Assembly: GCF_003841405.1 (NCBI RefSeq)
Contig: NZ_PXYA01000001.1
Location: 186,001 to 250,000, forward strand
DNA length: 64,000 nucleotides
Direction of reading: 5' to 3'
Source: Tetragenococcus halophilus subsp. halophilus DSM 20339
GTDB taxonomy: Bacteria; Bacillota; Bacilli; Lactobacillales; Enterococcaceae
In this document: in pieces, positions 40,085-44,305 of the stretch
Layout of the letters: each line of letters opens with the position of its first letter
How positions within the stretch are numbered: the stretch's first letter is position 1
Program-made: the position numbers and the translations under genes
Notes under the pieces: model-generated
What the model saw: the letters and a program-made list of their open reading frames with translations, nothing else
What the model was told of the DNA's origin: nothing
Databases searched by the model: none

Positions 40085-41416
40085 ATGGAAATTAAAGAAA
40101 TAGTGCCTGAGGAATTATTAACCTCAAATGCTCATGAACTCGAACCGGGACAAGCGGAATTAATCGGTTATGCTAAGAGTACAGAAGATGTCAGCGATTT
40201 TATGAAAAAAGCAAATGAGGCTGACAAAAAAGTGATTACGATTGGGGCACATACCGGATTAACTGGTGCAACTTATCCTCATGAAGGTGAGTGGTTTTTA
40301 AGTTTAGCTGAGATGACTGATATTATCTCTTTAGATAAAGAAACATTAACTTTAAATGTACAAGCAGGGGTGACTCTGGCGCAAATCCGCCAGTATTTAG
40401 CCGATACGCCTTATTTTTATGCGCCAGATCCAGGTGAAAAATCCGCTACGATTGGTGGTACTGTTGGAACGAACGCAGGAGGAATGCGCGCCATCAAATA
40501 TGGTGTAACACGCGATAATGTACGTGGCTATGATGTGGTGTTGGCTAATGGTGATATTATTCATGCAGGTAGTTTAAATCAAAAAAATAGTTCTGGTTAC
40601 GACTTAAAAGATCTTTTTATTGGCTCAGAGGGGACATTAGGTGTTATTACTGAATTACAATTAAAATTGCGGACTAGACCACGTTATGAACGTTCCATGC
40701 TGGTTGGTTTTGAAAAATTAGATGATCTGGCACCTACAGTCTATGAAATTTTAAATTCGCCTGTAGAGCCCGTAGCATTGGAATTATTAGAGAAAAATTC
40801 GGTGGGTTATGCGGAAGATTATTTACAAGTCAAAATGCCCAAACAAGAAGGAGCGGCTTTTTTACTTTTGACATTAAACTCCAATGACGAAAAAGCTCTA
40901 AACCGTGAATTAGACGAAGTCCGTTCCATTGTTAACTCGGCAGGCGCGTTAAATATCCGGGATATTGATGAAAAAGAAGCAAAATTAGTTTGGAATATTC
41001 GCGATCATATCCTAACCGGAATTTATGCTGCGGCAACTACCAAAATGTACGATCCTGTCGTTCCCACTCGTTACGTTCCTGATTTAATTATTCAATCGAA
41101 AAAATATGCAGATGAGATGGGAATTTCAAGTGCGTTTTTTGGACATGCAGGTGATGGCAACATCCATATCTGCGTTTTACAAGAAGATTATGAAGATGTT
41201 CAGTGGAAAAAGATGTTAGTCGAATATGAACAAAAACTTTATCCATTTATTGCTGAACTGGGCGGTTTGCCTTCTGCTGAGCATGGTATTGGCTTGGAAA
41301 AGAAAGAGTATTTATCCCATTTTTACTCAAAAGAATACATGAATACATTAAAGGCGATTAAAAAAGCACTAGATCCAAAAAATGTATTAAACCCAAATCG
41401 AATCTTTGATTTGTAA
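40085..41416 (+). CDS. FAD-binding oxidase, GlcD/D-lactate dehydrogenase-like
   Basis: 443 residues. FAD-binding type 4 domain: TIGAHTGLTGATYP, PDPGEKSATIGGTVGTNAGG and SSGYDLKDLFIGSEGTLGVIT; C-terminal domain with HAGDGNIHICVL and SAEHGIGLEKKEYL (metal/substrate His). The family oxidises 2-hydroxy acids such as glycolate or D-lactate. GGGAG is 9-10 nt before the ATG. A weak cre-like element (TAATAACGCTTACA, 40042-40055) lies upstream. Confidence 0.9.
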   Translation: MEIKEIVPEELLTSNAHELEPGQAELIGYAKSTEDVSDFMKKANEADKKVITIGAHTGLTGATYPHEGEWFLSLAEMTDIISLDKETLTLNVQAGVTLAQIRQYLADTPYFYAPDPGEKSATIGGTVGTNAGGMRAIKYGVTRDNVRGYDVVLANGDIIHAGSLNQKNSSGYDLKDLFIGSEGTLGVITELQLKLRTRPRYERSMLVGFEKLDDLAPTVYEILNSPVEPVALELLEKNSVGYAEDYLQVKMPKQEGAAFLLLTLNSNDEKALNRELDEVRSIVNSAGALNIRDIDEKEAKLVWNIRDHILTGIYAAATTKMYDPVVPTRYVPDLIIQSKKYADEMGISSAFFGHAGDGNIHICVLQEDYEDVQWKKMLVEYEQKLYPFIAELGGLPSAEHGIGLEKKEYLSHFYSKEYMNTLKAIKKALDPKNVLNPNRIFDL

Positions 41417-41421
41417 AAAGG

Positions 41422-41450
41422 TTGACCTAAGTTCTTTGTTCAGGTATGAT
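41422..41450 (+). promoter_or_regulatory. promoter of the tryptophan leader
   Basis: TTGACC (41422-41427), 17 nt, TATGAT (41445-41450): close to consensus in both hexamers. Transcription would begin near 41457, 30 nt before the leader ATG. Confidence 0.8.
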
Positions 41451-41486
41451 AAGCTCAATTACTAAACAAGAAAGGAAGAAACCATT

Positions 41487-41552
41487 ATGCAATTAACTTA
41501 CGCAAACAATTTAGCACAAGCATGGCAAAACTGGCGTAGTAGGTTGTATTGA
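41487..41552 (+). CDS. tryptophan leader peptide (21 aa)
   Basis: ATG 41487 with AAAGGAAG at 41471-41478 encodes a 21-residue peptide containing QAWQNWRSRLY, with Trp codons at 41523-41525 and 41532-41534, ending at TGA 41550. Two Trp in 21 residues, the near-consensus promoter, and the chain of competing stems immediately downstream mark it as a leader for ribosome-mediated attenuation rather than a functional protein. Confidence 0.75.
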   Translation: MQLTYANNLAQAWQNWRSRLY

Positions 41553-41668
41553 TGGATTCTTTCCATAGATACAACGATTTAGACGAGCAATCTAAAGCTT
41601 TGTATCTATGCCGGTTAAAATCAATCTTATGAACCGCATAGATCAATCATCTATGCGGTTTTTGTTTT
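41543..41668 (+). promoter_or_regulatory. five-segment transcription attenuator (Trp)
   Basis: Segments: A 41543-41549 (GTTGTAT), B 41564-41575, C 41600-41616, D 41632-41643, E 41649-41660. Possible stems: A:B (7 bp plus inner ATGGA/TCCAT), B:C (CATAGATACAA with TTGTATCTATG, 11 bp perfect), C:D (12 bp, one bulge), and D:E (12 bp perfect, 5-nt loop) with a T tract, which is the terminator. A ribosome halted at the first Trp codon leaves A free, so A:B then C:D form and D:E is prevented. A ribosome at the stop codon covers A, so B:C and then D:E form. The logic is inferred; the stems are seen. Confidence 0.75.
41661..41668. repeat. target-site duplication TTTGTTTT, left copy
   Basis: Eight-bp duplication shared with 43196-43203; this copy is also the T tract of the attenuator terminator. 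Confidence 0.9.
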
Positions 41669-41710
41669 GGCTCTTTGTCAAATAGTGTTGTTTAAGCAAA
41701 ACCTTTATAA

Positions 41711-41738
41711 AAAGAAGGACTTCGGTTCTTCTTTTTTT
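41711..41738. terminator. terminator at the left end of the ISL3 element
   Basis: AAAGAAGGAC and GTTCTTCTTT pair with one G-U around a TTCG tetraloop; T tracts exist on both strands. It can stop the transposase message and also any transcript coming from the Trp leader. Confidence 0.75.
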
Positions 41739-41744
41739 GTTATT

Positions 41745-43073
41745 TTATAAGATCTCAAGAAGCCCTTGTTGAATAAGCACTCGCTTACGTAGATGATTAA
41801 AAGAACGAAAGCCAAAGGCAATCCGTTGAATTACTTTAATCAAGTTGTTTTTCCCTTCAAGTTTGCCGTTGGAATACGGTTGAGTAAAAGATAAGGTAAT
41901 TTCTTTACGGTACTTTTGGAGGTGACGTAAGGATTTTTTAAAGGGTTCTTCTAATAAAGGCGACAGTTGATCAATGATAGCGAAAAATGGTTGCGCTTTG
42001 CCGTTTTCAAAAGCGTCAAGCAGATCTTGATAAACATCATAAGAAGCCTTAAGCACGGGATCAATGGTTAATAAGTAATCCACAACTTCCGATTCCGTCA
42101 CATATTTTTGGCGAAAAAGAGGGAACTGTTTCAAATGGTCGTACCCCAAGTTTTTATGCTTTTTTTGGAGCTGTTTCCAGTATTTTTTTAATTTGCGATA
42201 ATCCTTCATTTGTTGGGCGCTCTTTTTGTCCAGCTGGTTCATCGACCGAATCCGCTGCTGGTTAAAAGCTCGAGAAATCTGTTGGATAATGTGGAAATGA
42301 TCCACAAGAATCTTGGCCTTCGGAAATACTTGAGGGATCATTTTTCCATAAGCCGAATTCATATCCATAACCACATGTTGGACTCTTTTCCGCGCTTGTT
42401 GAGTAAATCGTTGAAAGTAAGCAATCAGTTTGAAATTGCGGCGATCGTCCAAGATATCGATAATTTTTCCTGTCTGAGCGTCACTGAAGATAAAACACAT
42501 GGCTCCTTCACAGTCCTTCGTGCCTTTGAATTCATCGATTAGCAAATGTTTCGGTAAATGGTTGGGATTGAATTTAAGTCCTTGATAGAAGGTATCCAAT
42601 ACGCGTTCCACAGTTTTAAATGAGACCCCATAGCGTAAAGCAATATCTTTCATCGATAGTTTTTTCTTCAAGTCTATCGCAATGGCAAACTTCAAGGCTT
42701 GCGAAATATAACAGTCTTTGGCGATATAATAGGTCCTGGCACTAAAAGTATGATGACAGGATTTACAATAAAATCGTTGCTTAAATAAGCGTAAAACGCT
42801 GGGCACTTCCTGATAAGGAATTAATTGAATATCCGAAGCCTTTGGCGAATGTTTAATAAGAAGATTCTCTTCATTTATGAGGCCACAACATTCGCAAGCT
42901 TTCGGGGTGTAGGTAAGGACACCGTAAAAGACATTCGTCATTCGATGATGAATGGGTTCTTTTTGAACTGCTTGAGCGGAAAAAAAGATGTGAGGGTCCT
43001 TAATATTGAGTAAGTTTTTAAGGCCTACATCTAGATTTTGATCTTTAATTTTGATATCTTTGTATTGAAGCAT
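41745..43073 (-). CDS. ISL3-family transposase
   Basis: 442 residues, intact. The N-terminal zinc finger has CECCGLI and FYCKSCHHTF; an HTH (SMKDIALRYGVSFKTVERVL) follows; DDE residues lie in HLLIDEFKGTKD, VVMDMNSAYGKMIP and YSNGKLEGKNNLIKVIQR. AAAAGGAG precedes ATG 43073 on the minus strand. An intact frame and exact target duplication suggest a recent insertion. Confidence 0.94.
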   Translation of the reverse strand: MLQYKDIKIKDQNLDVGLKNLLNIKDPHIFFSAQAVQKEPIHHRMTNVFYGVLTYTPKACECCGLINEENLLIKHSPKASDIQLIPYQEVPSVLRLFKQRFYCKSCHHTFSARTYYIAKDCYISQALKFAIAIDLKKKLSMKDIALRYGVSFKTVERVLDTFYQGLKFNPNHLPKHLLIDEFKGTKDCEGAMCFIFSDAQTGKIIDILDDRRNFKLIAYFQRFTQQARKRVQHVVMDMNSAYGKMIPQVFPKAKILVDHFHIIQQISRAFNQQRIRSMNQLDKKSAQQMKDYRKLKKYWKQLQKKHKNLGYDHLKQFPLFRQKYVTESEVVDYLLTIDPVLKASYDVYQDLLDAFENGKAQPFFAIIDQLSPLLEEPFKKSLRHLQKYRKEITLSFTQPYSNGKLEGKNNLIKVIQRIAFGFRSFNHLRKRVLIQQGLLEIL

Positions 43074-43140
43074 TTGTTTTCTCCTTTTATTTTGGTGTCC
43101 AACTTAATTATAAAGGAAACAAATGCTTTTTTGTTATATA

Positions 43141-43168
43141 AAAAATTAGTGTTATTACTAATTTTTTT
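43141..43168 (+). terminator. hairpin at the right end of the ISL3 element
   Basis: AAAAATTAGT and ACTAATTTTT are perfect arms followed by further T. It may end transcripts heading out of the IS toward trpX. Confidence 0.55.
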
Positions 43169-43195
43169 AGTAACAACACTAAATATTATAGACCC

Positions 43196-43303: not shown

Positions 43304-44305
43304 ATGAAAAACAAAGGATTGATATTCAGTGTTGCTGTTATTGTGGTAGTTTTAGCAGGTAGCTTGTTCGCTTTTGAGTTAGGGAAAAGGAATTCGGGAA
43401 ACGCTCAGTCTGAAGAAACGAAAAAAGTAAGTATTTTACAATATGTCAGTCACCCTTCATTAGATGATATACGACAAGGTGTGGAAGACGGCCTAGCGCA
43501 ATCGGGTTACAAAGAAGGCGAGAATCTTGAACTCGAGTTTCAAAATGGTCAAGGCGATCAAAGCAAATTAGCGACAATGAGCCAACAATTAGTCGAAGGT
43601 AATCCTGACGCTCTGGTAGGAATCGCTACACCCGCTGTTCAGAGTTTAGCAAATGAAACGAGTGATATACCTATTATGTTAGGCGCTATTGCAGATCCAG
43701 TGGGCAGTGATTTAGTCGATTCTATGGAAAGACCAGGCGGAAATATGACCGGCGTTTCTAATCAAGTACCGATTGATCAACAACTGGATTTGGCCAAAGA
43801 ACTTTTACCTGAAGCAAAAACAATGGGGATCCTTTATTCGTCCTCAGAAGATAATGCTAAACCACAAGTTGTAGAAGCCGAAAAAGAGGCGAAAAAGCAA
43901 GATTTTAAGACTGAAAGATATGCGGTTCCTTCATCAAATGAAATTCAACAAACGATCCAAGCCATGGACGATGTCGATTTTATCTATATTCCAAATGACA
44001 ATACTATGGCTAATGCGATGTCAACCATTGTTAACGAAGCCGACAAAAAGAATATTCCCATTATTCCATCAGTAGATATTATGGTGGAAGAAGGCGGCGT
44101 CGCGACCGTAGGGATTGACCAACATGAATTAGGGGTAAAAACAGGTGAAATGACAGCTGATATCCTCAATGGAGATGATCCAGCTAAAACTCCTGTCTAT
44201 GTTTACGACGAAGGGGAAACATATGTTAATCAAAAGCAAGTGGAAAAGTACAATATTGATTTGCCAAAAAATTTGGAAGATGAAGCAGAGTTTATAGATA
44301 GATAA
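43304..44305 (+). CDS. trpX: TrpX-family ABC transporter substrate-binding protein
   Basis: 333 residues. Residues 5-27 are a hydrophobic signal anchor without a lipobox Cys. The mature part is the ABC_sub_bind fold: VSILQYVSHPSLDDIRQGV, IPIMLGAIADPVGSDLV, and IPSVDIMVEEGGVATVGIDQ. TrpX binds tryptophan for the TrpXYZ importer in streptococci and relatives. The Trp leader upstream supports that ligand. The permease and ATPase partners are not next to it: a terminator follows at once. GTAGGAAGG precedes the ATG. Confidence 0.82.
   Translation: MKNKGLIFSVAVIVVVLAGSLFAFELGKRNSGNAQSEETKKVSILQYVSHPSLDDIRQGVEDGLAQSGYKEGENLELEFQNGQGDQSKLATMSQQLVEGNPDALVGIATPAVQSLANETSDIPIMLGAIADPVGSDLVDSMERPGGNMTGVSNQVPIDQQLDLAKELLPEAKTMGILYSSSEDNAKPQVVEAEKEAKKQDFKTERYAVPSSNEIQQTIQAMDDVDFIYIPNDNTMANAMSTIVNEADKKNIPIIPSVDIMVEEGGVATVGIDQHELGVKTGEMTADILNGDDPAKTPVYVYDEGETYVNQKQVEKYNIDLPKNLEDEAEFIDR

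Follow-up and report, generated by a model that had tools for sequence, protein, structure and literature searches.

A 2024 paper described ten strong riboswitch candidates, one of which is the RNA element called the trpB motif (SRC-39-1; Rfam RF04312). Its authors report >900 examples across Firmicutes and Fusobacteria, most of them upstream of an uncharacterised ABC transporter, and allowed that it might be a classic attenuator (PMC11109978). Here we describe a leader at positions 41422-41668 of a 64,000-nucleotide stretch of Tetragenococcus halophilus subsp. halophilus DSM 20339 (contig NZ_PXYA01000001.1, positions 186,001 to 250,000 of the forward strand), the whole of which we call the window. 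With a probability of roughly 0.8, this RNA works by ribosome-mediated attenuation of transcription, uses a leader peptide to sense charged tRNA-Trp, has six segments and three states, and is the same kind of RNA as the trpB motif, which would be explained as an attenuator of this kind.

Other described systems share parts of this arrangement. Like the classical E. coli trp and his attenuators (outlined in PMC10953045), the window leader has control codons, mutually exclusive stems and a terminator, and is predicted to be on only with a stalled ribosome; unlike them, it has six segments, a control-codon segment (Z) that pairs with segment C across an enclosed A:B stem, and C:D as its antiterminator. 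The Listeria ilv-leu leader Rli60, also a ribosome-mediated attenuator in a Firmicute, is experimentally supported where ours is computed, and is described with four segments and branched-chain codons (PMC5864092). His leader attenuators have been predicted in Bacilli, Erysipelotrichales and Peptostreptococcaceae, with His codons, a terminator and alternative structures upstream of hisS, hisZ or his operons (PMC2965389; PMC9413887). Some of the His loci reported below may be these same attenuators, but the portions of the two papers considered here do not link them to RF04312 or to Trp, Phe/Tyr or Leu leaders.

Anatomy of the leader

All features of the leader are on the + strand. A promoter-like sequence (41422-41450) has a -35 box TTGACC at 41422-41427 and a -10 box TATGAT at 41445-41450, separated by a 17-nt spacer, and similar boxes occur in a paralogous leader of the same genome. 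It is followed by a 21-codon open reading frame (ORF) at 41487-41552, encoding MQLTYANNLAQAWQNWRSRLY, with Trp13 at 41523, Trp16 at 41532 and a TGA stop at 41550-41552. Segment A (41543-41556) overlaps the last codons and stop of this ORF and has segment B (41562-41575) as its partner. B can instead pair with segment C (41599-41615), giving the P1 hairpin of RF04312, which has an apical stem TTTAGA/TCTAAA (41578-41596). Segment D (41632-41643) can pair with C as the antiterminator or with E (41649-41660) as the intrinsic terminator, a perfect 12-bp hairpin; E and its T tract together span 41649-41668. The first-pass annotation, made from the sequence alone, had named the promoter, the ORF with its two Trp codons, segments A to E and the terminator, and a letter-by-letter check bore these out. 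Its count of five segments is probably wrong, as it overlooked segment Z (ACTGGCGTAG, 41530-41539). Z overlaps Trp16, and its predicted partner is the 3' half of C (CTATGCCGGT, 41606-41615), with which it can form 10 bp, two of them G-U.

In the absence of a ribosome on the leader, A:B would form and Z would pair with C, leaving D free for the D:E terminator, so that the device would be off. When charged tRNA-Trp is short, a ribosome stalled at the Trp codons would cover Z and leave A; A:B would form, the freed C would pair with D, and no terminator would arise. With sufficient Trp, a ribosome reaching the stop codon would cover both Z and A, allowing B:C and then D:E, and the device would again be off. 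The short ORF has a ribosome-binding site and control codons that match the amino acid of the regulated gene, and the antiterminator C:D and terminator D:E are mutually exclusive and supported by covariation. A ribosome is taken to cover the RNA as far as the first base of its A-site codon plus 12 nt; with this footprint, stalled and terminating ribosomes expose different segments, as the first-pass annotation had argued from the spacing. We infer translation of the leader, the timing of ribosome and RNA polymerase, termination itself and the response to Trp.

Relationship to the trpB motif

In the window, every Rfam family stays below its gathering cut-off, and the curated Trp-leader family, which is the four-segment trp leader, is likewise missing when matches in 41400-41720 are listed up to E = 1. 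At a relaxed threshold, RF04312 aligns end to end at 41562-41670 (52.1 bits, cut-off 59; E 9.8e-7 for 321 bases searched), and the paralogous leader scores 50.3 bits. The window leader is clearly related to RF04312, yet by Rfam's rule it is no member. The two share an RNA plan over the full length of the model: P1 (B:C) is followed by the T-tract terminator hairpin P2 (D:E), upstream of an amino-acid gene, trpX in relatives. Among 20 trpX loci of relatives, 6 score above the cut-off. At E <=0.001, the order has matches in 211 of the 395 genomes searched (60 above the cut-off), the class in 20 of 398 and the phylum in 5 of 398; at E <=0.005, matches occur in 28 of 117 genomes of the order of one Clostridial match and in 20 of 331 of its class. 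These samples overlap, and some of the matches are chance. The motif is not universal, as TrpX occurs in 243 of the 295 genomes in which it was sought in the order.

The published RF04312 model starts just 3' of the short ORF. The leader ORF and segments A and Z are absent from the riboswitch proposal (PMC11109978), in the parts of its text considered here. In open-licence PMC literature, one paper uses "trpB motif" with RNA and none uses "RF04312"; the titles and abstract openings listed there do not tie either to a leader peptide. Within that literature, it appears to be new that the trpB motif is a ribosome-mediated attenuator, with Z and A upstream of the published model and with exchanged codons.

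Conservation of the leader ORF and stems

Leader ORFs were sought at 107 RF04312 loci, a non-random set comprising the matches of the best 30 genomes of the order, 17 from the class and 60 other order matches. A Trp leader was defined as an ORF 9-45 codons long that has a Shine-Dalgarno-like sequence and Trp in the last ten codons, ending from 45 nt before to 12 nt after the start of the model. Such an ORF is present in 99 of the 107 loci, compared with 110 of 3,710 random positions (3.0%) in the same loci. Among the rest, L095 has a His leader and a hisZ-like gene, L099 and L103 have Phe/Tyr leaders upstream of TrpX-like proteins (384 and 269 bits, cut-off 390), and L167 has a Trp leader by eye; L101, L102, L104 and L171 are without a leader, and their RF04312 matches are probably chance.

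The main stem alignment contains 57 of the 107 loci, chosen for spread after removal of L061 (for its weak A:B), L099, L147 and L167 from a first list of 61. B:C is paired in 93.1% of cells, its apical stem, the least conserved helix, in 68.1%, and the two parts of C:D in 87.0% and 73.7%. A:B is paired in 87.4% of cells, and 6 of its 12 pairs show changes on both sides; D:E is paired in 92.3%, with such changes in 9 of 10. No more than 1 of 500 shuffles reached any observed stem value, counts that are not probabilities because the loci share ancestry. Slid versions of the stems never exceed 51.1% paired cells. Covariation in C:D and D:E, which the first-pass annotation had proposed to look for in relatives, is supported. 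Segment A pairs better with its own B than with 91% of foreign Bs on average (n=104; L101, L102 and L104 omitted). Z:C pairing was compared in 152 of 156 leaders, omitting L061, L160, L205 and L221, whose A:B is weaker than -10.

A separate alignment of Clostridial leaders with Phe/Tyr or Leu codons (32 of 34, L208 and L219 omitted) gave 94.0% paired cells for A:B (both sides changed in 5 of 11 pairs) and 92.4% for C:D (2 of 12); its Leu rows align poorly near Z and A. The count of pairs changed on both sides was reached by 6 of 500 shuffles and that of further pair types by 23 of 500.

Apparent exchange of control codons

Relatives seem to use Phe/Tyr, Leu or His codons in place of Trp. The phylum and Clostridial searches added 70 loci (L241, at the same place as L221, was dropped), with 27 Phe/Tyr, 18 His, 8 Leu and 1 Trp leader and 16 loci without one; any class of leader was found at 6.2% of 1,852 random positions, and the Leu leader L221 and Trp leader L205 are probably chance. 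Across all 177 loci, leader codon type agrees with the downstream gene. Trp leaders (n=100) precede 87 TrpX, 6 TrpB and 7 other genes, the window being counted with the last because an insertion, described below, intervenes before its trpX. His leaders (n=19) precede 11 hisZ-like and 8 hisS-like genes; Phe/Tyr leaders (n=29) 18 NSS, 6 ABC permease, 2 TrpX-like, 2 BrnQ-like and 1 other; and Leu leaders (n=8) 7 NSS and 1 other. Loci without a leader (n=21) are followed by 18 other genes, 1 TrpX and 2 NSS. The conserved ORF and codons, the pairings with their covariation, the spacing and this match of codon type to gene in relatives are all computed observations.

Gene labels come from phmmer against nine reference loci, with 28 downstream proteins checked against NCBIfam. 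L226, L228, L229 and L235 (hisZ-like) and L192 and L215 (hisS-like) exceed their cut-offs, while the hisZ-like proteins of L095, L176, L224 and L225 fall below theirs (218-228 bits versus 271.65). In a tree of 25 NSS proteins from one Clostridia family, a full-support branch divides proteins with Phe/Tyr leaders (18) from those with Leu leaders (7). In the Bacillus cereus group, T-boxes for Leu, Phe and Trp are reported upstream of NSS genes (PMC2494555), so this transporter family seems to be under a different sensor there.

Phe/Tyr leaders lie directly upstream of ABC permeases at L207, L212, L216, L218, L240 and L243, which suggests Phe/Tyr transport by these permeases; those of L207 and L240 have no NCBIfam match at 1e-12 and belong to Pfam BPD_transp_2, as does the permease of the trpXYZ genes in the window's genome. 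Tyr/Phe-rich leaders precede BrnQ-type carriers at L181 and L185, named branched-chain amino-acid carriers by NCBIfam, a substrate annotation that may be wrong. At L143:2-1555, a Trp leader has an unexpected target, an Opp4A-like oligopeptide-binding protein (478.8 bits, cut-off 650), and at L061 the first long ORF found 3' of a Trp leader (L061:2047-3105) encodes a group II intron reverse transcriptase. Two loci followed by NSS genes have irregular matches: at L220 (G1177), RF04312 matches a second terminator hairpin, with the leader and the rest of the device just 5', and L209 (G1238) has two overlapping matches.

Alternative mechanisms

The first-pass annotation was right, on computational grounds, in the kind of device, a ribosome-mediated Trp attenuator, and in its sign, on with a stalled ribosome and off with one at the stop codon. 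It proposed a reversed default, in which A:B and C:D form without a ribosome and give read-through, so that only a ribosome at the stop turns the device off. This version is unlikely, and its default is probably wrong. The same output sign is expected of a TnaC-like arrest, with free tryptophan stalling the ribosome at the leader stop, covering Z and A and enforcing termination. Among 93 of the 99 Trp leaders (those with A:B of -9 or better), 45 have their last Trp 9 nt before the stop, as might suit such an arrest, but the distance ranges over 9-30 nt and the stop codon is variable too. An RNA core common to Phe/Tyr, Leu and His leaders is also hard to square with a single arrest peptide, and we regard this mechanism as improbable.

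A ligand-binding riboswitch, in which P1 (B:C) would bind tryptophan or some related compound and thereby control D:E, has in its favour the publication of SRC-39-1 as a strong candidate with its many representatives (PMC11109978); we think it very improbable for this leader. Streptococcus suis does control trpXYZ by a T-box, which shares target operon and input (charged tRNA-Trp) with the window leader but binds the tRNA directly, without a leader peptide (PMC9382623). The chance that the window leader is a T-box is negligible: no T-box reaches the gathering cut-off in the window or in the 20 trpX loci of relatives, where one before orthologous trpX would have told against the first-pass annotation, and no T-box covariance model matches 41400-41720 even with E allowed up to 1.

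One argument weighs against the three-state attenuator itself. A review cites evidence that transcription and translation are uncoupled in Firmicutes (PMC10953045), which argues against such a device there and makes its spread notable. If the attenuator is real, coupling would be sufficient for attenuation in lineages thought uncoupled, and the leader peptide would name the substrate of uncharacterised transporters. We lean, with some reserve, toward the broader view that a riboswitch candidate with so many reported copies is one modular, codon-swappable, six-segment sensor of Firmicutes that distinguishes three situations (ribosome missing, stalled or finishing), its codons reset among Trp, Phe/Tyr, Leu and His.

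Copies in the genus and an insertion element

The leader is present in all nine Tetragenococcus genomes searched, 15 leaders in total, and all 15 peptides keep WQNW or WQSW, so it is more than a chance feature, and the Trp codons essential to the first-pass reading are conserved. The paralogous leader, 73% identical, precedes trpXYZ without interruption, its trpX heading two further transporter genes. The window's own trpX (43304-44305, + strand), a tryptophan ABC transporter substrate-binding protein (NCBIfam NF041285, 449.5 bits, cut-off 390), is the ancestral target gene of the window leader; the protein is 100% identical to TrpX of T. halophilus Tet1 and T. solitarius NBRC 100494. This trpX stands alone, and the next listed ORFs, from 44475, are on the opposite strand.

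Between leader and trpX, outside the switch, lies an ISL3-family insertion sequence (41669-43195, - strand; transposase 41745-43073) that the first-pass annotation did not see. It is flanked by an 8-bp target duplication, TTTGTTTT, and is inserted in the T tract of the attenuator. In five other genomes of the genus (L012-L016, L012 being compared base by base) the leader adjoins trpX without the element, which probably uncouples the window leader from trpX. The left end of the element has short matches at seven other sites in the genome. At L009:5749-5943, 3' of trpXYZ, there is a match to Rfam RF02863, Enterococcus sRNA 2410 (80.7 bits, cut-off 61).
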